IMG/VR virus record: IMGVR_UViG_3300027749_000306
Span: 1 to 34,415 of that record
Direction: 5' to 3' (one strand)
From: a virus
Length of the DNA: 34,415 nucleotides
A program made the position numbers and the translations under genes. Below are positions 17,559 through 29,127 of the stretch, one piece after another; the stretch's first letter is position 1; every line of letters begins with the position of its first letter. The notes beneath the pieces are model-generated. The model searched no databases. It saw only the letters and a program-made list of their open reading frames with translations, and had not been told where the DNA came from.

Positions 17559-18161
17559 TTAAAACGGCATCGGATCATTGAGGTCAGCCATTGATTGTTC
17601 AAGCGCATTCCGATCTTTCATGATATTGGTTTTGACCTGCGTGATTTCGGCGCCCTTCCAGATCTCTTTGGCCCTGACAATTTCGGGGAAGCCGGCAATT
17701 AGGCGCCCGATTTCGTCCATCGTGTAGATTTGCACCCACCGACTATCAGCCGAAACATCTTTCACATCCTCATTGTAACGCACGAGGGCGGCCACCGTGC
17801 CGTTGGATAGGGGAATTTCCCACACCGTCGGCTTGAGCCGCTCACGGCCCATTTCTGTAGCTTTACGGTCGAGAGCGAGCCAGGCGACGATCATGCGCCG
17901 TGCTTCGGTGCGGACGTCGTCGAGGGAGCCGTACCAAATCGCTCGGTCGAGCTTGTGCCGCTGCGAGTCAAACTTGGCACGCAGTTCGGGATCGACCATC
18001 AGCCGCAGCCGGTCGGCTCCCCACTTCGCCTCCATGTCCCGCGCAACGAGATCCACCTCATCGATCTCCGCCTGACCGCCGAAGTAGGTCGAGGGGTGCG
18101 ACTGCCAAGTGGGTTCAGCCGGTTTAGTCGCCGGCTGATTGCTGGTTGGTTTCTTCGCCAT
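17559..18161 (-). CDS. Hypothetical phage protein, 200 aa
   Basis: Product MAKKPTSNQPATKPAEPTWQS..., with a Pro/Thr-rich start and then a mostly helical body. Segments visible are EIDEVDLVARDMEAKWGADRLR (about 32-53), LRAKFDSQRHKLDRAIW, ARRMIVAWLALDRKATEMG (about 87-105), and RWVQIYTMDEIGRLIAGFPEIV. I recall similar proteins beside replication genes in phages but no function. Last gene of the leftward replication operon, overlapping the preceding gene by 38 bases and ending at the shared terminator. GGAG precedes the ATG. Confidence 0.75.
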   Translation of the reverse strand: MAKKPTSNQPATKPAEPTWQSHPSTYFGGQAEIDEVDLVARDMEAKWGADRLRLMVDPELRAKFDSQRHKLDRAIWYGSLDDVRTEARRMIVAWLALDRKATEMGRERLKPTVWEIPLSNGTVAALVRYNEDVKDVSADSRWVQIYTMDEIGRLIAGFPEIVRAKEIWKGAEITQVKTNIMKDRNALEQSMADLNDPMPF

Positions 18162-18462
18162 TCATGCGCTCCATTAATTTTTGGATGATCCATTCGACTT
18201 TGTCTGGGTAATGCTCGATCAAAAGCTTGTAGTCTTTGCTCGACACAACAACCCGACTTGAGCTTATCGTTATTTGCCAAACATTCTTTTTGGCTTTTTT
18301 GTAATAAAACAGTTTGAAGTTTGAAAACTTCTCATTGCTCCACCCTTCAATTTTTACAGCGTGCCAGTCGCCTTCTTTAAAAACTTCAACCTCGTCAGGC
18401 CTAACAACCAAAAATCTCAACCCAACTTTTCTGTGGCCGTCTTCAATAAGTTCAGTGCTCAT
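18124..18462 (-). CDS. Hypothetical protein, 112 aa
   Basis: Product MSTELIEDGHRKVGLRFLVV..., strand-rich with aromatic and Lys residues (FSNFKLFYYKKAKKNVWQI, then SSRVVVSSKDYKLLIEHYP) and a C-terminal amphipathic helix (VEWIIQKLMERMN). I choose the ATG at 18462, seven bases after GGAGGA, over the ATG at 18477 that overlaps this ribosome site. The 3' end overlaps the 200-aa gene. No recognised family. Confidence 0.68.
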   Translation of the reverse strand: MSTELIEDGHRKVGLRFLVVRPDEVEVFKEGDWHAVKIEGWSNEKFSNFKLFYYKKAKKNVWQITISSSRVVVSSKDYKLLIEHYPDKVEWIIQKLMERMNGEETNQQSAGD

Positions 18463-18533
18463 AACTTCGTCCTCCATGTCCCTAGGAAGTCCCTAGTTAT
18501 TTGCCTAGTAATATGAGCCGCGCCAATCGTCAA

Positions 18534-18747
18534 GGGACAAAAATCTGGACATTTGCGCGGGACACTGCGGCACTCCCCTGTAAGGGGGAGTGTCCGCGTA
18601 AGCTGTCCCTTGTGTCCCGCAAGCAAAAAGTCTTGTCGGGAAAGTGTCCCTTTCAACTGTCCCGTTACTGTCCCGCACTGTCCCGCAAAAGTTAAGCATT
18701 TGTAATCCAACAATAATTTGCCCAACTGCCAACTGTCCCGTGGGACA
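18534..18747. repeat. TGTCCC iteron cluster with hairpin, beside primase/helicase
   Basis: TGTCCC occurs at 18604, 18613, 18645, 18658, 18669, 18679 and 18734, with inverted GGGACA copies near 18533, 18560 and 18742. The last pair forms TGTCCC-GT-GGGACA (18734-18747), inside the 3' end of the primase gene. A strong hairpin, CACTCCCC (18571-18578) with GGGGAGTG (18585-18592), extendable by GCGG/CCGC, lies in the same stretch, and GGACACT/AGTGTCC offers a competing fold. Dense short iterons next to a replication gene suggest an origin or a binding array for the phage replication protein; this is inference. Confidence 0.55.
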
Positions 18748-20869
18748 CTAAGCGCTCAACAGCCCTTGCAAACGTCTTCCGCTTCGTGTCTTCGCCATTT
18801 GGGTTGCCAGCATAGTAATATTGGCGCCAAGCATTGACGTTAACGACCCGTGTGTTGGCTGGGATCTGCGACAGGCCGACCATTTCGCCACCCTCATTGA
18901 TAGCCATTCTAAGCGCCGCTAAAACCGTTTTGTCATTCGCATTGAGGGTTCGGTCGATCTTCTTTTTGGCGGGCGTTTCGGATATCTCAATCGGCACCAG
19001 AGCAAGGCTCTTGTGTTCCGGATCTATAGCACTGAGTGCTACAGTTTCCATTTGGAACATAAGCTTGAAACCGTCCTCGCCGTCCTTCTGTTTGGTCACG
19101 AGGATCTGCCCGATGCGCTCGTCCGAGTTCTCGTCGGATATGCGCGTCAGCTCCAGTTCCGCGTCCACAGCGCCGAGGAGGCTGCTGTGACCGCGTTGTC
19201 CGCGTGCCTCGTCCTTGCCGCTGTGGTGGACGATCATGACGGCGGATCCGGTCGCCTGCTGCAGGAGGCCGATGATATTAATAAAGGCGCCCATGTCCTC
19301 GGAGGTGTTTTCGTTGCCGCCGGCGAAGGCCCGCGCCAGCGTGTCGATGACAATCAGCTTCGGCTTGATGTTGTTCTTTTTGATTGAAGCAAGGAGTCCG
19401 GCTAGGTCTTCCATTGTCGAGCGCAGGTTAAGTTGGCTCTTCAGGAAATACAGGTTCGGTATCTCTGGCATGTCGTGACGCTTGCGGAGGGCGTCTAGAC
19501 GACGTTTGAGGCCAGCGCCGCCCTCACCCGCAATATAAACGACGTCGCCCGCCTCAGACTTCTTACCAAAGGCCATGAGGCCCAAGGCGACGCAGGCGCT
19601 TAGGTAAAGCGCCACAAACGATTTAAACGTGCCAGGCTTGCCGTAGAGGGCCACGAAGGCCATCATGGGTATGAGGTCTTGCAGCAGCCACTTCACCTGC
19701 TCGTCGGTAAGTTTTGTTGAAGGGATAAGGAGATACTTGTCCTTGATCTTTGGCTTTTCGTTGTCGCTGCTGAAGTTATCCTCGTCCGAATACCCAAATG
19801 CCGATTTGGGTATTGCGATAAATGGCTCTTTCGAAAACTTCAGCAAAATCTCGCCAGTTTCGGAATCGATCGTGTATTCCGTCGGGTCAAAAGGGCGAGC
19901 GGTGTCCTTTACCGAACGCTCTTCCTTGGCGTGGTCAGACACTTTATCCCACCACTGCGCGGCGGCAGTGTTCCACTTTTGCGTGAAGAGCGATATTCCG
20001 CGATTTTCCCGTTCTAGTAGAACGGCATTGTCGGTCTCAGGCTCAACAATTCGTGATTTCGTTTTCTTTTCATAGACTTCGAACGCTTTCTTCATCTCAG
20101 TTGTGAGGAATGCATCATTGATCATCGGGGCTTCGCGCCGAAGGTTAACAAGTGTCCCCCAGATCAGGCGCGTCATGTATTCCTCGCGGCCATCTTGAAC
20201 GCGGCCAGAAATCGAGATCTCATACTTCGGCGATGAAGTTTTTTCACCTTTGACGTTTGTTGTTGTCTTGCCGCCAAATTCCTCGGCGAGGTGATCAATC
20301 TCCTCGCATAGCCACTGCGGGCATTCGGCGACGTCTATTTCATGCGGGCCGTTATTCTCGGCCCAGTCGTAATTTTTGCCTGACTCGTGCAGACTGGGGG
20401 CAATGACGGCGAAGCCGCCCTGTCCGCGTATGTCGATGCCGAGGCTTGTCTTGCAGGTGGGTGCCGACCATCCGGCGGGGATCTTGAAGAAGTATTGCAG
20501 GCCACCGCCGCCAGTTTTTTGAAAGACGGTCTCAAGTTCGCCGGCTGTCTGCTGTCGGTCTTGCATGGCCTGCCACCACCCTGCCGCCGACTCGTGCCGC
20601 TGAATGTCGAGGTCGATGACGACGATGTTGGAGGCTTGGCCGGTGATGATGCCGATATTCTTTTCTTTGACGTAGTCGCCATTGGCGCCGTACCAGCGCT
20701 CGAAGGTAAGGTCGGGGACCAGTTCCTGCTGGAGCGGCCGCCACTCGACGAGCGGTCGCTTCCACTGCTTACCTTTTTGTGGGCTGACGGCGGGAACGAT
20801 TTGCCATTTAAGCGTGCGGTAAAACCTTGCCCAGTCGGCGGTGCCGCCAAATTCCAAGTCGTAATTCAT
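18692..20869 (-). CDS. Bifunctional primase-polymerase / RepA-like helicase
   Basis: About 725 aa. N-terminal Prim-Pol (AEP) region, residue numbers counted from the upstream Met: NIGIITGQASNIVVIDLD (about 75-92, DLD as metal site), KTGGGGLQYFFKIP (122-135) and DIRGQGGFAVIAPSLHESG (150-168). C-terminal RecA/RepA-type ATPase: Walker A GKPGTFKS (414-421), AGEGGAGLKRRLDAL, Walker B LIVIDTLAR (509-517) and VMIVHHSGKD (548-557). It should prime and unwind phage DNA. I prefer the ATG at 20869, one base after the methyltransferase stop, over 20881 which overlaps that gene. The 3' end contains iteron sequences and the middle a 13-mer identical to the early operator. Confidence 0.9.
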   Translation of the reverse strand: MNYDLEFGGTADWARFYRTLKWQIVPAVSPQKGKQWKRPLVEWRPLQQELVPDLTFERWYGANGDYVKEKNIGIITGQASNIVVIDLDIQRHESAAGWWQAMQDRQQTAGELETVFQKTGGGGLQYFFKIPAGWSAPTCKTSLGIDIRGQGGFAVIAPSLHESGKNYDWAENNGPHEIDVAECPQWLCEEIDHLAEEFGGKTTTNVKGEKTSSPKYEISISGRVQDGREEYMTRLIWGTLVNLRREAPMINDAFLTTEMKKAFEVYEKKTKSRIVEPETDNAVLLERENRGISLFTQKWNTAAAQWWDKVSDHAKEERSVKDTARPFDPTEYTIDSETGEILLKFSKEPFIAIPKSAFGYSDEDNFSSDNEKPKIKDKYLLIPSTKLTDEQVKWLLQDLIPMMAFVALYGKPGTFKSFVALYLSACVALGLMAFGKKSEAGDVVYIAGEGGAGLKRRLDALRKRHDMPEIPNLYFLKSQLNLRSTMEDLAGLLASIKKNNIKPKLIVIDTLARAFAGGNENTSEDMGAFINIIGLLQQATGSAVMIVHHSGKDEARGQRGHSSLLGAVDAELELTRISDENSDERIGQILVTKQKDGEDGFKLMFQMETVALSAIDPEHKSLALVPIEISETPAKKKIDRTLNANDKTVLAALRMAINEGGEMVGLSQIPANTRVVNVNAWRQYYYAGNPNGEDTKRKTFARAVERLVSHGTVGSWANYCWITNA
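20234..20246. promoter_or_regulatory. Third copy of the TGAAGTTTTTTCA operator-like 13-mer
   Basis: Exact copy of the 13-mer at 15762 and 16495, here inside the primase/helicase coding sequence and followed by TTTGACG. It could be an intragenic site for the same regulator or coincidence; the coding frame (Gly-Glu-Lys-Thr-Ser) fully accommodates it. Confidence 0.3.
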
Positions 20870-20870
20870 G

Positions 20871-22556
20871 TTATTTTCCATTTTTTATCTCAATATAATT
20901 TTGTATGCGTTTGCCGATCCAGTGCATTACAGGAACGGCCATGCTGTTGCCAAGGGCTTTATATCGCGGGCCATCGGCGGCGTTTGGGATTGCAGTGTAG
21001 TCGTCAGGAAAACCTTGCAATCGCTCACACTCGCGCGGGGTCAGGCGGCGCACTGCCATTTGTTGTGCAATTACATGACTTGGCCTGCTTGGCCTGTCTT
21101 CTCCTTCAGCGCGTAAAGTACCTGCTTTGTCATCTTCCATCCAATAACCCTGTCCACTCTCGCGTATGACAATTGGTTGCATTACGGCTGTGCCTCCTTG
21201 TGCCGCAGTTGGGTTTAACCCAGATGCGGCATCCAATGTCTTGCTGGTGATTGCATCCATATCAACATAAAACCCGCCCTCTGGCCGATCGGGCCGCTTA
21301 TTGCCGCCAAAGATATTGATTGGTTGCGCTACCGCCATACTTCCCCCACCATTTGCATCATATGCGCCAAGAGAGCGAAGCGTAGGCGACATGTCCGTTG
21401 TAGCGTCACTGCCGTAGTCTTTTGAGTTAAATGCAATTGGTTGTACTACATGCATGTTGCTATTTGAACTTAAAGTTCCAGTCGGCAGCTCACTTTCAGC
21501 CCTTGATCTGTTTGTCGCACTTGTAATTTGCGCCAAATCAAATGCTATTGGTTGCATGACAGCTGTTGTTGTGCTGTTTTGAATACCGCCTGGTGCTCTG
21601 GATAATAAAGCATTAGAAACTTCAGTGTAACTTGCAGTATTTACTGTGCCATCAGACCCATGCAATATAATACCAATTGGTTGCGCTACTAAATCTGTTG
21701 CATCTTTCCAATCGCGAGCCTTCATTGCGCTGGCAGTTCCATCTTCAACATATTCGCCAAATGCAACCATACGGGCAGCTAAAACAGCACCAGCAATCTG
21801 ATTTCTTATCGGACCATCTTTGGCACGCGCGTCTAATGTTGGATTTAATTCGGTGAAATTACCTCCAGAAGGGCCAATTTCAATGCCTCTGGCAGATCCT
21901 TTCCCCGCACTGCGGCTCGGCGCAATATCCCTGCGCACGCCTTCGCGCTCAAAAAGTATTTCTGCTGGATCGAATCCGTCTCTAGCACTTGCGACAACGA
22001 ACACACGACGGCGTCGTTGGGCCACTCCGAAATATTGGGCATCAAGGACACGCCACGCTGCTGATCTTTTGGGACCAACAACCAAACCAGCGTTTGTCCA
22101 CTTTCCCCCTGTCGGGATGAGGGGGGCATCATTTCCCGTAAGGGCGGCAAGGAAGCATCCGAAGGCGTTGTCTTTGACGGACAAGACGCCGGGGACGTTT
22201 TCCCAGACGATGATGGCAGGGGGTCGTGCTGCATCATGTCGAACATTGTCAATTGCATCGGCCAATCTCACAAATTCTAATGTTAAATTTCCACGATCGT
22301 CTGACAGCGATTGGCGCAATCCCGCCACGCTAAACGCTTGACAGGGCGTTCCACCCACTAACAAATCGGCATCAACAATCCAATCCTGATCACGCAAAAC
22401 GGTAAAATCACCGTGGCATGGCGTGTCGGGGTAATGATATGCCAATACTTGACGAGGGAATTTTTCTATTTCGCTAAATGCCAGTGGCTGCCAGCCAATG
22501 GGGTGCCACGCCACTGTTGCCGCCTCTATTCCTGAGCATACTGATAAATATTTCAT
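20871..22556 (-). CDS. DNA cytosine-C5 methyltransferase with repeated variable region
   Basis: 561-aa m5C methyltransferase. Motif I LSVCSGIEAATVAW (4-17), motif IV GGTPCQAFSVAG (68-79, catalytic Cys 72), motif VI WENVPG (118-123), motif VIII QRRRRVFVVA (180-189), motif IX TPRECERLQGFPDDY (about 506-520) and motif X KALGNSMAVPV near the C-terminus are all present, so it should be active. The target-recognition region between VIII and IX is unusually long (about 300 aa). It holds at least five units ending in V/A-x-QPI (AQPIGI, MQPIAF, VQPIAF, AQPINI, MQPIVI). The ribosome site AAGGA derives from the last word of the array at 22557-23484. Likely protects phage DNA from restriction. Confidence 0.92.
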   Translation of the reverse strand: MKYLSVCSGIEAATVAWHPIGWQPLAFSEIEKFPRQVLAYHYPDTPCHGDFTVLRDQDWIVDADLLVGGTPCQAFSVAGLRQSLSDDRGNLTLEFVRLADAIDNVRHDAARPPAIIVWENVPGVLSVKDNAFGCFLAALTGNDAPLIPTGGKWTNAGLVVGPKRSAAWRVLDAQYFGVAQRRRRVFVVASARDGFDPAEILFEREGVRRDIAPSRSAGKGSARGIEIGPSGGNFTELNPTLDARAKDGPIRNQIAGAVLAARMVAFGEYVEDGTASAMKARDWKDATDLVAQPIGIILHGSDGTVNTASYTEVSNALLSRAPGGIQNSTTTAVMQPIAFDLAQITSATNRSRAESELPTGTLSSNSNMHVVQPIAFNSKDYGSDATTDMSPTLRSLGAYDANGGGSMAVAQPINIFGGNKRPDRPEGGFYVDMDAITSKTLDAASGLNPTAAQGGTAVMQPIVIRESGQGYWMEDDKAGTLRAEGEDRPSRPSHVIAQQMAVRRLTPRECERLQGFPDDYTAIPNAADGPRYKALGNSMAVPVMHWIGKRIQNYIEIKNGK

Positions 22557-23484
22557 TTTTCCTTGCCTGCCTCGTCTCGCCCATCATTGCCAATCCACGC
22601 CTAATCTCGCCTGCCTTGCCTAATCGGACCGGACCGAACCTGGCCATGCCTCGCCTGCCTTGCCAAATTGGCCACACCTCGCCGCTCCAAATCATGCCAA
22701 ACCACGCCCGGCCTGCGATGCCATACCTTGCCGCACTTAGCCTTGACGAACCATGTCTCGCCCCGCCTGCCTTGCATAACCCCGCCGATCCAAGTCTAGC
22801 CACGCCTCGCCTGCCTTGCCTAACCTCGCCGGACGTGTCCGCATCTGGCCATGCCACGCCTGCCTTGCTATGCCTAGCCGAATCACGCCGGACCGATCCC
22901 CGCCTATCCTTGCCTGCCCTGCCGAACCAGACCGGACGATGCCTAACCTCGCCAATCCTCTCCACGCCTGCCTTGCCTTGCTGTGCCACGCCAGACCCGG
23001 CCGCTCCATGCCTCGCCTGCCTTGCCAAACCTAGTTCGGCCTGACCGTGACACGCCGTGCCGGGCCTGCCTTGCTATGCCTTGCCAGACCATACCGATCC
23101 ATACCTCGCCTGCCTTGCCCTGCCATACCGAACAGATCCCTGCCTATCCGAGCCTGCCGAGCCAATCCGTGACTTATCTGACCTTTCCTCGCCCTGCCTG
23201 CCACGCTCTTCCTCGACTAGCCTGATCCCGCCGGACCTTGCCTGCCATGCCAATCCTTACCCAACGGTGCGTAGCCTTGCGATGTCACGCCTGCCACACC
23301 TTGCCATTCACCGCCCTGCCATTCGATGCCCGTCCCTGCCTGCCATGCCATGCCAGACCGGACCGAAGCTAGCCTAAACCCGCCTCGCCTGCCGTGCCTG
23401 ACCTGAACGCGCCATACCCCGCCTCTCCTAGCCTGCCTTGCCGGACCCGTCCAAGCCTCAACAGGCCTTTCCCCGCCTGCCTTG
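22557..23484. repeat. Pentamer-phased GCCTGCC array filling an intergenic gap
   Basis: The 928 bases between the methyltransferase start and the stop of the 153-aa gene carry no credible gene. Read on the plus strand they consist almost wholly of five-base words NNNCC (for example TCGCC, ATGCC, GGACC, GATCC). A GCCTGCC anchor, usually within CGCCTGCCTTGCC, begins at 22565, 22609, 22653, 22711 (variant), 22765, 22809, 22858, 22912, 22966, 23015, 23064, 23108, 23152, 23196, 23240, 23289, 23338, 23387, 23431 and 23475. Intervals are 44, 49 or 54 bp except one of 58. Words between anchors differ from unit to unit. Several long frames on both strands are by-products of the five-base period. The minus strand has GG about every five bases. 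Function unknown. Confidence 0.92.
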
Positions 23485-23946
23485 TCAGTCAGAATTGAGC
23501 TGACGTTCAAGGCGCGCTTTGACGCGATTGACTTCCGACAGAAGGTCGTCAACTTCAGGAGCCGCCAAATTATGGAGCATCGTCGAGATTTGATTGAGGC
23601 GCATCAAAACGATTTCCAGCCGGCTTGGCGTATTTCTGGCGATGATTTGCGTGTGGTAATATCCCTCGCCACTTTTACGCGGCGCTTGCGTAAACATGGG
23701 CGCGAGAACGACTTTGTTGTCCTGACGCACAATCTCAACCGTGACGGTCTTGATCAGCTGCCGCGCCTGCTGCAGGCGGTAGTTGTGCGCGGCCTCTTGA
23801 TCGTCCCAATTGAATTGATCGTGCATGGCGGAGTTTGGATTGCTTGCGGAGCGCACCACCTCTTCGGGGGTAAGAACCCCCGATTTGGCAATGGCTTCAA
23901 GCTCTTCGCGGATAGCCGCGAGTCGTTTGCTTGAAATTCTTGGCAT
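23485..23946 (-). CDS. Conserved hypothetical protein, 153 aa
   Basis: Product MPRISSKRLAAIREELEAIA..., helical N-terminus (about 5-40, including LTPEEVVRSASNPNSAMHDQF), a central region WDDQEAAHNYRLQQARQLI, a strand region with KVVLAPMFTQAPRKSGEGYYHT, and a C-terminal coiled coil (DDLLSEVNRVKARLERQL). I recall similar proteins in phage replication clusters, of unknown function. ATG at 23946 overlaps the previous stop (TGATG); an in-frame GTG three bases earlier is less likely. Its TGA directly abuts the repeat array. Confidence 0.75.
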   Translation of the reverse strand: MPRISSKRLAAIREELEAIAKSGVLTPEEVVRSASNPNSAMHDQFNWDDQEAAHNYRLQQARQLIKTVTVEIVRQDNKVVLAPMFTQAPRKSGEGYYHTQIIARNTPSRLEIVLMRLNQISTMLHNLAAPEVDDLLSEVNRVKARLERQLNSD

Positions 23947-24575
23947 CACATTCCCTCTATTTTGAAAGTACCCCAGCCAAGTCCGGCGGAGGACTTGGAG
24001 TCGGGCCGTCCCTCACCGATGCCGACCTGCATACCCGCACGCATGATGAGGTTTGCAACGTCCTTGTCGGTGAATTGGTCGCCGTCGTAAGACACGCGGA
24101 GATTGATGTGCCACTCGCGCCATAGGGGTCGAACGCGAATGTCAATCACGCCGGTGGCGTTACGGACGTGCATGTCGTTGCGTTCCCAGTCGCCATGTAG
24201 ATGCACGAGCGGGACGCCATCGACACGGTCAAACGTGTCTGCTTCAACGAACACAGACAGTTTGGCAAGTGTCATTTTAAATCCGACGAGGCGGCAGGCG
24301 GAGATCATGGCCGCGCGAAATGCACCAGCCGGAACGCCAACATGCCCATCCACGCCAATGTGCATGGCGTTGACGCAGTCCTCGTCGAAGTCGCGGGCCT
24401 CGCGGACTTTTTTACCGCGCGCCGTTGTTCCTTCCGCCATTTTGCCCATCATCATATTTTTGGCTTTTTCGCTGAAGCGGGCCTGCACGAAGGGCGCAGT
24501 GCCGATTAGCTTAAAAGCTATTGTATTAATTTTGGGGGCGGTGATTTGGATTGCTTTAGAAGTTTTATCTAACAT
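23946..24575 (-). CDS. Conserved phage protein of unknown function, 209 aa
   Basis: Product MLDKTSKAIQITAPKINTIAF... Recognisable blocks are LIGTAPFVQARFSEKAKNMM (about 23-42), VGVPAGAFRAAMISACRLVGFKMTLAK (79-105), GVIDIRVRPLWREWHINLRV (about 141-160) and an ending GIGEGRPDSKSSAGLGWGTF. I know this layout from many phage and prophage genomes, always without function; the Gly-rich GLGWGTF end and two-domain strand pattern recall RAMP-like RNA-binding folds, but that is speculation. It sits between the resolvase and the 153-aa gene in the replication/recombination operon. AGGA precedes the ATG at 24575. Confidence 0.78.
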   Translation of the reverse strand: MLDKTSKAIQITAPKINTIAFKLIGTAPFVQARFSEKAKNMMMGKMAEGTTARGKKVREARDFDEDCVNAMHIGVDGHVGVPAGAFRAAMISACRLVGFKMTLAKLSVFVEADTFDRVDGVPLVHLHGDWERNDMHVRNATGVIDIRVRPLWREWHINLRVSYDGDQFTDKDVANLIMRAGMQVGIGEGRPDSKSSAGLGWGTFKIEGM

Positions 24576-24617
24576 TTTAGTTTTCCTGTTATTTAACTCC
24601 CTGTGCGTCAGGGTCCG

Positions 24618-24635
24618 ATTGGGGGAAGCCCCAAT
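24618..24635 (-). repeat. Hairpin at the 3' end of the resolvase gene
   Basis: ATTGGGG (24618-24624) and CCCCAAT (24629-24635) form a perfect 7-bp stem with a 4-base loop, touching the stop codon of the resolvase gene. No T run follows on the minus strand, so mRNA stabilisation or processing is likelier than termination. Confidence 0.5.
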
Positions 24636-25084
24636 TACTGTATGGTTTCGACGTAGAAGCGTGCTAACAGCGCTGCCTCCGCGCGACCATTATCCTTTTT
24701 TCTGCTAAATCCTTGATTTTCGGGCCACAATCTAATTGCCAGCGCGCGTGATTCGTCTTTGTCTGATGTCAGGCGGAAGTGCTTTTTCCAGCGCACGGGG
24801 CTAACAAGGTGATAGGGGATCATGCTGGCGGCGACGGTGCCGATCGCGATACCGTAAGCCATACCGAACTTGAAAGTGCTGGCGACGCCTTGGCCAGGCA
24901 TTGAGTGGACGGCCTCGATCATGGCCGCACTGGGATTATACTTATTGATGAGATGAAATAAACCAGCGCCATCGACCTGATTGCCGGCAACGGGCGTATC
25001 GTAGACGGACACGCGGTTTTCTTTTGGGAAGTAAAACGCGACGGCGCCAGAGATGCCAGGGTCGATGCCGAGGATGCAAGTCAT
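24635..25084 (-). CDS. RuvC-like Holliday junction resolvase
   Basis: 149-aa RNase H-fold nuclease. Visible catalytic set: LGIDPGISGAVAF (Asp 8), AAMIEAVHSMPGQGVASTF (Glu 57), a basic/acidic patch SDKDESRALA (108-117) and KKDNGRAEAALLA with Asp 131 and Glu 136. The MPGQGVASTFKFG stretch after the Glu is typical of phage RuvC-like proteins, and length matches them (about 150 aa). It would cut branched DNA formed during phage replication or recombination before packaging. The ATG overlaps the previous stop. The distal motif has RAEAALLA where many relatives have RADALLLA; Glu can serve as metal ligand. Confidence 0.85.
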   Translation of the reverse strand: MTCILGIDPGISGAVAFYFPKENRVSVYDTPVAGNQVDGAGLFHLINKYNPSAAMIEAVHSMPGQGVASTFKFGMAYGIAIGTVAASMIPYHLVSPVRWKKHFRLTSDKDESRALAIRLWPENQGFSRKKDNGRAEAALLARFYVETIQ

Positions 25085-25272
25085 GCTACTTTGTTCCTAT
25101 TATTATGTTTGGCAAAGTCTTTGTATCTGATGCGGCCGCTAGACCGCATCATGATTTCGATTTGCATATGGTAGGGAACTTTATTGCGACTACGCCACTG
25201 ACGTATAGTGTGGTCGAGGATGCCAAGGTCTTTGGCGATCTCCGCAATAATTTGCCACTGCTCAGGTGTCAC
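25081..25272 (-). CDS. Small putative DNA-binding protein, 63 aa
   Basis: Starts with GTG overlapping the stop of the GapR-like gene (GTGA), and ends overlapping the resolvase start (ATGA). The product MTPEQWQIIAEIAKDLGILDHTIRQWRSRNKVPYH... matches a short helix-turn-helix: IAEIAKDLGI then DHTIRQWRSRNKV as recognition helix. The tail is basic (RIRYKDFAKHNNRNK). Probably a small regulator or accessory DNA-binding protein; the four-base overlaps on both sides imply coupled translation. Confidence 0.72.
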   Translation of the reverse strand: MTPEQWQIIAEIAKDLGILDHTIRQWRSRNKVPYHMQIEIMMRSSGRIRYKDFAKHNNRNKVA

Positions 25273-25544
25273 TTTTTAAATTCTCTTTCCAATGCAGCTT
25301 GACCGAGGGGCGTGTCTGATAGCATGCCCAGTGCCGCCATGTAAGTTTCCATGAGGGCTTCCTCTTCCTTGCGCTGCTCGTCGGTCTTCTTGCGCAGGGC
25401 AACGACTTTACGCAAGATCTTTGGATCATAGCCATTGCTTTTTGCTTCGGTGTAGATTTCACTAATTGATTGCGTCAGTAACTTCTTTTCGTCTTCCAGC
25501 CGCTCAATGCGGTCAATAATGGATTGCAGTTGATTGTTGATCAT
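25269..25544 (-). CDS. GapR / DUF2312-like DNA-binding protein
   Basis: 91-aa protein: IIDRIERLEDEKKLLTQSIS (8-27), EAKSNGYDPKILRKVVALRKK (33-53) and EEEALMETYMAALGM (61-75). These are the hallmark blocks of the GapR (DUF2312) family, where cellular members bind overtwisted, A/T-rich DNA as coiled-coil tetramers ahead of forks and RNA polymerase in Caulobacter and relatives. The family is largely alphaproteobacterial, which helps place the host. Phage copies may handle DNA topology during replication or compete with host GapR. First gene of the leftward replication operon; AGGAG precedes the ATG. Confidence 0.88.
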   Translation of the reverse strand: MINNQLQSIIDRIERLEDEKKLLTQSISEIYTEAKSNGYDPKILRKVVALRKKTDEQRKEEEALMETYMAALGMLSDTPLGQAALEREFKK

Positions 25545-25573
25545 ATTTATTCTCCTATAGATATGATTTGCGC

Positions 25574-25602
25574 ATCTTGTGACAATTTGTCACGAATGTC
25601 AA
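25574..25602 (-). promoter_or_regulatory. Leftward promoter with operator in its spacer
   Basis: On the minus strand TTGACA (25602-25597) is followed after 17 bases by CAAGAT (25579-25574), a moderate -10 box. The inverted repeat GTGACA-ATT-TGTCAC (25579-25593) fills most of the spacer, a classic repressor position. It would control the GapR-like gene and the replication operon. Confidence 0.55.
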
Positions 25603-25611
25603 CAGCCCCTA

Positions 25612-25640
25612 TTGACGAATTATTTTGAATGCTTCATAAG
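25612..25640 (+). promoter_or_regulatory. Rightward promoter for the nuclease operon
   Basis: TTGACG (25612-25617), 17-base spacer, CATAAG (25635-25640), about 30 bases before the ATG at 25669. It is back to back with the leftward promoter, so the operator at 25579-25593 could affect both. Confidence 0.5.
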
Positions 25641-25668
25641 GGGCAAACCAAATTGAACTGGAATGTAA

Positions 25669-26421
25669 ATGAACAACCCATTTGAGAAGTACAACATCAA
25701 ACACTTGTCGCCATCACAATGCAATTTGTTTATTGCATCGCCCGCCATGTATGTCATGGAGCGGCTGATGAATGTGCGCACGCAAGTGGGCGCCGCCGCC
25801 TTTCGTGGCACGGCAGTTGAGGCTGGGATTGTTCACGGCTTGATGAATGACGCGAATCTGTTTGAGTGTCAGGCCGTTGCCAAAAAAGAATTTGATAAAT
25901 TGTCTGCACTGTCGTCAGACCCGCGCCGCGATAAAGAGTATGCGGCAATTCCGGAAATGGTTGAGCAGGGATTGTCGGAACTTTGGCCATACGGAAAACC
26001 GAGCAGCACGCAGGGCAAAATTGAATATCAGGTTGAGGGATTGGCCGTGCCACTTATTGGTTTCTATGACCTTGAGTGGGAAAATCACGGTGTGCTTGTT
26101 GATTTGAAAACAACGCACGCACTGCCGTCAAAGATCAGCACAAACCACGCACGTCAGGTGGCACTGTATGTCGCGGCGCGTGGCGACAATTTGGATGCGC
26201 GCATTACTTACGTCACGTCAAAGAAAGTCGCGACGTATCAGCTGGAAAACAAGCGCGAGCACGTCAAGGCGCTTGAGCGCGTGGCGTTAACCATACAACG
26301 ATTTTTATCCCAGAGCGACGACCCGAAGGAGTTGGCGCAATTGGTTGTCCCCGACGTTGACAGTTTTTATTTTAATGACCCCGCAACACGCCAAGCGGCG
26401 TTTGAGATATGGGGCATGTGA
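25669..26421 (+). CDS. PD-(D/E)XK nuclease (RecB-like exonuclease)
   Basis: 250-aa protein starting MNNPFEKYNIKHLSPSQCNLF. The N-terminal LSPSQCNLFIASPAMYVMERLM (13-34) is the usual SxSxL-like start of PD-(D/E)XK_1 nucleases; RGTAVEAGIVHG (46-57) gives the first Glu. GFYDLEW (131-137) and VLVDLKTT (142-149) give the Asp and D-x-K catalytic core, and NHARQVALYVAA (159-170) is the conserved QxxxY motif. Such proteins act in phage DNA recombination, often next to an SSB or annealing protein, as here. Size matches single-domain phage members without helicase. Confidence 0.9.
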   Translation: MNNPFEKYNIKHLSPSQCNLFIASPAMYVMERLMNVRTQVGAAAFRGTAVEAGIVHGLMNDANLFECQAVAKKEFDKLSALSSDPRRDKEYAAIPEMVEQGLSELWPYGKPSSTQGKIEYQVEGLAVPLIGFYDLEWENHGVLVDLKTTHALPSKISTNHARQVALYVAARGDNLDARITYVTSKKVATYQLENKREHVKALERVALTIQRFLSQSDDPKELAQLVVPDVDSFYFNDPATRQAAFEIWGM

Positions 26422-27948: not shown

Positions 27949-28130
27949 TGGAAATTTTGTACGAGTGTGAGCACTGCCAATGCACGTTGATGGCGGCCGC
28001 TCACGATCGGCACGAGTTTTTTTGTTTGGGCTGCCAAAAGGAAACAGTGCCAGTGATGGTGTATGGGCTGGAGGTGTTTAATTATGGACCTGAAAGAGAG
28101 ACTGCAGTTCGCGATCAATCACAAAGTTGA
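27948..28130 (+). CDS. Small zinc-ribbon protein, 60 aa
   Basis: Product MEILYECEHCQCTLMAAAHDRHEFFCLGCQKET... Two Cys pairs (CEHC at 7-10 and CLGC at 26-29) form a short zinc-ribbon-like knuckle. ATG at 27948 shares a base with the previous stop; an in-frame longer reading from 27852 would overlap two upstream genes and lacks support. The C-terminus overlaps the next gene. Many phages carry such tiny zinc proteins; the target is unknown. Confidence 0.68.
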   Translation: MEILYECEHCQCTLMAAAHDRHEFFCLGCQKETVPVMVYGLEVFNYGPERETAVRDQSQS

Positions 28131-28281
28131 GAATTGGGAGCTTCTGTCCCAAGCTTTGGGACGTATTGACTTCCTCGAAGAAAGCTATTATGAGTTGGAC
28201 TTGGAATACCAAATATACAAATCAAAAGTTTATGAAATGAAAAAAAGGAATGATACAAATGACAAGAGATCAGGTGATTGA
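28084..28281 (+). CDS. Hypothetical coiled-coil protein, 65 aa
   Basis: Product MDLKERLQFAINHKVENWELL..., mostly helical: LSQALGRIDFLEESYYELDLEY then a basic end (KSKVYEMKKRNDTNDKRSGD). I use the ATG at 28084, eight bases after GGAGGT, rather than 28063. It overlaps the zinc-ribbon gene by 47 bases. No family recognised. Confidence 0.62.
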   Translation: MDLKERLQFAINHKVENWELLSQALGRIDFLEESYYELDLEYQIYKSKVYEMKKRNDTNDKRSGD

Positions 28282-28303
28282 GTGCGCTAAGGAGCGGACT
28301 ACA

Positions 28304-28912
28304 ATGAGTAAAGATTTTCGCGTTTTAGTCAGAGTAAAAAACAATTTACTTTTAGAGAAAATAGAAAAGGCTGGATACGATTCGATCAGTGAATTTTCCA
28401 GAGCTTGCGGCGTGGCACAAACGACTGTTGGTCATTTTGTAAACATGCAAAAATCACCCATAAATTCTCATAGCGGTGAATATAGTCAAGCATTTATGAA
28501 AATAATTGATTTTTTAAAATGCATACCGGAAGACGTATTTCCTGAAAAACTAATGGATAAAAAAATAAAGGGATACAAAAAAGAATTTAAAATAGACGCC
28601 GACGATTTGGTCTCATCTTTGCGTTCACTAACAATTGAACCAGAAAAAAAGATGATCATGGATCAAGCAGAGCAAAATTTTAAAACATTATTAAAAGAAA
28701 AAATATCATCACGGGAATATGAGATTTTAAAAATGCGATTTGGATTGGATGGCAGCGAAAAATATACACTTGAGGAGGTGGGCGAAAAATTTAATCTTAG
28801 TGGTGAGCGCGTTAGATCTATTGAAGTAGGAGCAATGAGAAAATTAAAAAGCCCATCCACTTTCAGGCAAACAAGAAGCATTTTTGAAGATTATACATCA
28901 GCGAGGAATTAA
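28304..28912 (+). CDS. Helix-turn-helix plus sigma-70 region 4 regulator
   Basis: 202 aa. N-terminal XRE-like helix-turn-helix at about 15-60: LLEKIEKAGYDSISEFSRACGVAQTTVGHFVNM, the same start I recall in alphaproteobacterial phage regulators. C-terminal about 134-186 is a clear sigma-70 region 4: LKMRFGLDGSEKYTLEEVGE then GERVRSIEVGAMRKLKSPS, nearly the RpoD pattern that contacts the -35 box. Regions 2 and 3 are absent, so it is not a full sigma factor. It may redirect RNA polymerase or act as a -35 binding regulator. ATG at 28304 follows AAGGAG; in-frame ATGs at 28250 and 28259 are alternatives. The gene is A+T-rich relative to neighbours. Confidence 0.85.
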   Translation: MSKDFRVLVRVKNNLLLEKIEKAGYDSISEFSRACGVAQTTVGHFVNMQKSPINSHSGEYSQAFMKIIDFLKCIPEDVFPEKLMDKKIKGYKKEFKIDADDLVSSLRSLTIEPEKKMIMDQAEQNFKTLLKEKISSREYEILKMRFGLDGSEKYTLEEVGEKFNLSGERVRSIEVGAMRKLKSPSTFRQTRSIFEDYTSARN

Positions 28913-28914
28913 AA

Positions 28915-29127
28915 ATGAGCGGCGAAACGAAACAACGAATCAGTGAATTAGAAGCAGATATTGCACGACTGAAGGCGGCGCAGCCAACACTGCGCGATCA
29001 GTTTGCAATGGCGGCGTTGACTGGATTAATATCAATTAATCCAGCTCCAAAAAGTTTGGTAGGCATTGCAGAATTTAGTTATTTGGCGGCCGATTCCATG
29101 ATGGAGGCCCGCACTTTGCGCACATAA
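28915..29127 (+). CDS. Small phage protein with coiled-coil start, 70 aa
   Basis: Product MSGETKQRISELEADIARLKAAQPTL..., starting with a coiled coil (5-22), then LRDQFAMAALTGLISI and EFSYLAADSMMEARTL. The second half matches a short domain common in phages (LRDxFAxxALxGLL ... YxLADAMLEAR), function unknown. ATG two bases after the sigma-like gene stop. Confidence 0.7.
   Translation: MSGETKQRISELEADIARLKAAQPTLRDQFAMAALTGLISINPAPKSLVGIAEFSYLAADSMMEARTLRT

Follow-up and report, generated by a model that had tools for sequence, protein, structure and literature searches.

A Pentamer-phased Array in a Phage Contig Is Very Probably the Guide Array of a VIPR System

The pentamer-phased tract between two genes of the window (the whole 34,415-nucleotide stretch of IMG/VR record IMGVR_UViG_3300027749_000306) is very probably the guide array of a VIPR system in a tailed phage; it would be directed against genes of competing phages and silence them by binding. 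By analogy with described systems, recognition and silencing of rival phages' genes through the array is its most likely function. The assignment draws on the grammar of the array, its linkage to two genes, the RAMP fold of the product of one of them, the homology of that product to the inferred Vipr of phage SUSP1 and a few matches that guides of relatives make when one target base is skipped. In the preprint that describes it (PMC13142463, bioRxiv 2026.04.26.720920), VIPR comprises phage-encoded RAMPs and vrRNAs of alternating GGY and NN; the NN pairs read double-stranded DNA with one base skipped, mostly at the codon wobble position, and rival elements are repressed. A sequence that had been unexplained is now tied to this recently described RNA-guided system. 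The initial annotation, made from the sequence of the window, was partly supported; it knew of no described element like the array, a view superseded by this 2026 preprint.

Organization of the array

Read in the sense of the neighboring genes (minus strand), the array consists of repeated GG-Y-N-N units whose register is reset by GGCA every 44–58 nt (Table 1). The GCCTGCC anchor of the plus strand reads GGC-A-GGC on the minus strand and thus contains a unit of four bases instead of five, and this resets the phase. The 20 anchors first reported were recovered as 19 exact copies from 22565 to 23475 and one variant at 22711. Three intervals of 54 and one of 58 were confirmed, but the ten of 44 and five of 49 in the initial annotation became nine and six on recount. 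The 58-nt interval results from a damaged stretch (ATTT) after the pairs of guide 17. Modules in the window have 8–10 full units each and one 4-nt unit; they abut, with no separate 3' tail after them, and the array runs to the ribosome site of the next gene. As first described, the array begins at the TGA of the upstream gene, which has 154 codons and not the 153 residues given earlier, and it ends in the ribosome-site region of a methyltransferase gene. The latter, which encodes a C-5 cytosine DNA methyltransferase (20871–22556, minus strand), lies directly downstream and has its ribosome site at the 3' end of the array.

TABLE 1 Coordinates and contents of the array, its guide modules (NN pairs) and the partner genes
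Feature	Position	Strand	Description
vipr (F2)	23946..24575	-	RAMP protein, 209 aa, phrog_4652, Cas7/Csm3-like fold predicted from AF2 model
vap-like accessory protein (F1)	23485..23949	-	154 codons, of which the second is an in-frame ATG; phrog_15946
Putative VIPR guide array (vrRNA region)	22557..23484	-	19 modules, GGYNN units split by 4-nt GGCA; G-rich strand is sense
Guide 1	23434..23477	-	GG AA CT GA TT CG CC AA
Guide 2	23390..23433	-	TA GA GG AT GC CA CA AC
Guide 3	23341..23389	-	GA GG TA TA TC CC CT AT AT
Guide 4	23292..23340	-	AG CG AT AT AG GG AT AA GT
Guide 5	23243..23291	-	GT AT AA TA AC TG AA TT AT
Guide 6	23199..23242	-	AA CC GG CA TA GA AG GT
Guide 7	23155..23198	-	AG GA AA CA AA AC TT TC
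Guide 8	23111..23154	-	TC TA AG TC TC AT AG AA
Guide 9	23067..23110	-	GA AT TC AT CT AA AT AA
Guide 10	23018..23066	-	CC AC GT AC CA CG TA TT AA
Guide 11	22969..23017	-	GA AT GC CG CT GT AC AA AA
Guide 12	22915..22968	-	GT GA TT GA TA AT CC CT TC AG; no target (first 9 pairs scanned)
Guide 13	22861..22914	-	AA TA GG TC CC GT TC TA AT AA; no target (first 9 pairs scanned)
Guide 14	22812..22860	-	GT AT CA GC CA CC GA TA AA; scan matches chance-like
Guide 15	22768..22811	-	GA GT TA TT TC GG TA AA
Guide 16	22714..22767	-	GG GA AT TC AA TA GC AA AT AT; ends in variant boundary unit CGCA
Guide 17	22656..22713	-	CG GT TT AT TT GC GA GT CA, then damaged ATTT; no credible target on scan
Guide 18	22612..22655	-	GA AT CA TC CC CC TA AA; scan gave chance matches only
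Guide 19	22568..22611	-	GA TA GT TT AA TG GA GA

The pentamer pattern is real and far above chance. The autocorrelation of CC in the array is 0.56 at lag 5, as compared with ~0.03–0.07 off phase, and has further peaks at 44, 49 and 54, all lags at which peaks had been predicted. CC pairs at lag 5 number 100, whereas 1000 Markov-1 simulations of this sequence averaged 34 and never exceeded 64. In 300 kb of simulated sequence the HMM array detector did not identify a single segment. The earlier statement that almost every word has the form NNNCC was too strong, since ~80% of the units keep an intact CC, and the words between anchors are not all different as was claimed: TTGCC and ATGCC recur. 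Copies of the array with 0–2 substitutions are present in three other IMG/VR contigs (L243–L245); the sequence agrees among four contigs and is therefore not a single-assembly artifact. No Rfam family was found in the interval 18000–26000, and therefore no hammerhead ribozyme there, and a blastn search of phages and plasmids with the array as query gave no match.

Partner genes and distribution among relatives

The sole family match of F2 is phrog_4652, of unknown function. In Foldseek the AF2 model of the protein, with a mean pLDDT of 91, matches Csm3 (E 9e-6, probability 1.00) and likewise other type III and type VII CRISPR RAMPs; as modeled, F2 folds like the Csm3/Cas7 RAMPs. F1 has a confident, mostly helical model that gave no match in the PDB at E ≤ 0.001. 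The P0001 scan gave identical F2 sequences only. Two adjacent SUSP1 genes, encoding proteins of 195 residues (28474–29061) and 146 residues (28031–28471), were taken as vipr and accessory gene because GGY/NN tracts flank the pair; the text of the preprint gives no coordinates for them. The F2 profile matches this inferred Vipr with an E value of 2.8e-18 (53 bits), and the tracts that flank its gene carry tails. Between the F1 profile and the inferred SUSP1 accessory protein no relation was detectable (E 0.06, in a comparison with the SUSP1 family alone).

A pattern scan of viral contigs with one anchor and the words following it gave at least 120 stretches, and among the matches listed a small HMM detector identified arrays of ~60 to 1600 bp in most of these loci. 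The same pattern in bacterial and archaeal genome contigs gave mostly chance matches, with clean anchored arrays only in L151 and L135 among those examined. The element is therefore strongly virus-associated in the collections searched, and the window itself is from a virus, in keeping with VIPR, whose carriers are mainly viruses. Arrays start mostly 0–20 nt past the stop codon of the upstream gene, and most of the genes at this position belong to two families. Profile searches showed these to form an F2–F1 operon in which the array follows F1, lies between F2 and F1, precedes F2 or occupies several of these places. In the pattern-selected set, 91 of 91 arrays, among the matches listed, lie beside F2 or F1 on the same strand. 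An unbiased set of 80 loci was fetched with the F2 protein of L004, independently of the array; 67 of the 68 viral loci with at least 1 kb of downstream room have an array nearby, and 84 of 85 nearby arrays are on the F2 strand. The two sets together give 175 of 176 arrays on the F2 strand, in agreement with the initial annotation, which took the G-rich strand as the RNA sense. F1 adjoins vipr in most loci.

Pooled over all parsed arrays, the unit has G in 94% of cases at the first position, G in 88% at the second and Y at the third (C 71%, T 21%), followed by two free bases. In the same arrays 1299 of 1608 four-nt units are GGCA, and modules have 8–12 full units in most cases, with a mode of 9. 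Near-identical arrays show few changes at any position; in diverged relatives substitutions are commonest at N, lower at both G positions and intermediate at Y. The array keeps a grammar and not a sequence, as the initial annotation had proposed, and the pattern and F2 searches of viral contigs bore out its expectation that relatives would keep the array with different words. Isolate phages with the module are Cyanophage Cy-LDV1, Mycobacterium phage Saal and Gordonia phages Pipp and Ecliptus, and sequence data by themselves show the system to be common in environmental phages. In Pipp most of the array (L241, 5608–5841) falls within gene 43, annotated as encoding a hypothetical protein and probably miscalled as a gene. 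A relative of F2 (50% identity) and an array (L353, 7062–7389) are also present in a plasmid record of Rhodoplanes serenus that includes phage genes.

Guide targets under a one-base skip

A total of 1077 distinct pooled guides were decoded and compared with 2.6 Mb of DNA. Perfect matches of at least 16 bases numbered 72 with one skipped base, as compared with none for zero, two or three. Nearly all of the 72 come from one guide of L250 (5188–5305) that fits the EDMVRVGM codons of other vipr genes, and the count of its target loci is inflated because these were fetched in part with the peptide EDMVRVGM. This guide matches at 16 of 16 positions, whereas the vipr gene of L250 itself departs from it at three of these sixteen pairings, suggesting that guides in one phage are directed at the vipr genes of others, the target site in the carrier's copy having diverged. 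A guide of L302 matches at 19 of 20 positions the DPPYN motif of a methyltransferase gene in L047, and two adjacent guides of L259 match at 18 of 20 positions each a single tape-measure gene of L260, at sites 126 bp apart; the names of these two target genes are a reading of the translations, with no database match behind them. In the L250, L302 and L259 matches the skipped base is at the codon wobble position throughout. With up to two mismatches and one skipped base, 12 distinct guides had matches, against 8–19 for shuffled guides; there is no pooled enrichment, and support from targets therefore rests on the few individual matches.

Five guides of the window were scanned against viral contigs and gave zero, zero, three, two and nineteen loci, none a credible target; the nineteen loci represent five unrelated gene sets. 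A match at 18 of 18 positions between a window guide and L333 was rejected as a target, being antisense to a gene in an unrelated-looking prophage contig. Guide patterns of the Rhodoplanes and Aureimonas relatives, searched in ~790 genomes, gave 0 matches, and 5 against 2 control matches.

Proposed mechanism and alternative explanations

In the proposed mechanism, the operon of vipr, the vap-like gene and the array would be transcribed into a G-rich RNA along which the Vipr RAMP would oligomerize, one subunit for each five-nt GGYNN unit. The protein would hold GGY, and the two N bases would read double-stranded DNA with one target base skipped between pairs. The four-nt GGCA would break the register and separate independent guides of 8–10 full units, and the guides would be directed against genes of competing phages, which would be bound and silenced where codon motifs are conserved, the skipped base falling at wobble. 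That the array is transcribed, that its RNA forms a complex with the protein and that this complex binds and silences DNA are steps carried over by analogy from PMC13142463; one subunit per unit and GGCA as a guide boundary are our own proposals.

The window shares with VIPR a small phage-borne RAMP gene, a second small gene and flanking non-coding GGY/NN pentamer tracts, and a few decoded guides of relatives fit genes of rival phages with a one-base skip in wobble phase. The 9–16 repeats per guide of VIPR are matched in the window only when the 4-nt unit is counted. SUSP1-type (type II) VIPR has an invariant structured 3' tail on each guide, whereas the window has none, and the discrete tailed tracts of the SUSP1 region contrast with one continuous run of 19 modules punctuated by GGCA. 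This tail-less, GGCA-punctuated layout may represent a distinct VIPR variant; it may also already be among the types of the preprint, which refers to seven of them and to "staggered arrays with overlapping vrRNAs." At somewhat below even confidence, we would suggest a VIPR variant outside the described layouts, with tail-less, polycistronic arrays that each hold many independent guides, in which the GGCA slip unit marks or drives processing and some guides are directed against conserved codon motifs of rivals, including vipr, the carrier's own copy having escaped. GGCA-punctuated arrays give many directly decodable guides per phage, and targets in rival phages are therefore predictable. Class 1 CRISPR-Cas systems, with their Csm3/Cas7 RAMPs, share with the window the predicted fold of F2 and the periodic protein-RNA register expected from it. 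However, the window lacks CRISPR repeats and spacers, no cas family was found by Pfam among the 20 window proteins tested, and there is a single minimal RAMP with a noncontiguous guide code.

Long tracts that offer one unit to each protein could also suit a DNA filament, and the arrays sit within gene operons, as might be expected if the array were a DNA-level binding track (a partition, origin or packaging site) coated by F2 or F1 rather than a source of guide RNA. This reading is very unlikely: F2 is predicted to have the fold of an RNA-guide RAMP, the near-constant placement of arrays on the F2 strand would be needless for a DNA site and therefore counts against it, some of the decoded guides match, in codon phase, motifs in the coding sequences of rival phages, and vrRNAs were detected in the SUSP1 system according to PMC13142463. 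Among the roles that the initial annotation had offered, a structured RNA or protein-binding track came nearest to the truth. Nothing in the analysis supports a replication origin, a packaging element or two-layer quadruplexes, nor is there support for a methylation landing pad; the methyltransferase is one of many neighbors, and the constant partners are the two upstream genes.

Arrays in which only 60–70% of the units are intact could be taken as a functionless low-complexity repeat, decayed or coding, or as an assembly artifact. We consider this less probable still, in view of the five-base phase that runs through all frames (the array is non-coding, as first annotated) and the recurrence of the grammar and gene linkage in ~150 loci, as well as among isolates from several phage groups. 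The agreement among four contigs also argues against it. The least probable explanation, given almost no weight here, is a type III toxin-antitoxin-like pair in which the repeat RNA is the antitoxin for F1 or F2. A small gene does lie beside a repeat RNA, but ToxI-type repeats are near-identical and upstream of the toxin gene, whereas in the present case N bases vary among units and the array usually lies downstream. Furthermore, no toxin family was found for F2 in Pfam, PHROGs or NCBIfam, and for F1 PHROGs gave only a family of unknown function (phrog_15946).

Elsewhere in the window, a RuvC-like Holliday junction resolvase (24635–25084, minus strand) adjoins vipr, and a Prim-Pol/AAA primase-helicase is encoded at 18692–20881 on the minus strand. 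The nearest phage records for the primase-helicase and the terminase are mixed, many of them alphaproteobacterial. The gene block on the opposite strand includes a PD-(D/E)XK nuclease family protein (25669–26421, plus strand) and a sigma-70 region 4 domain protein (28250–28912, plus strand).
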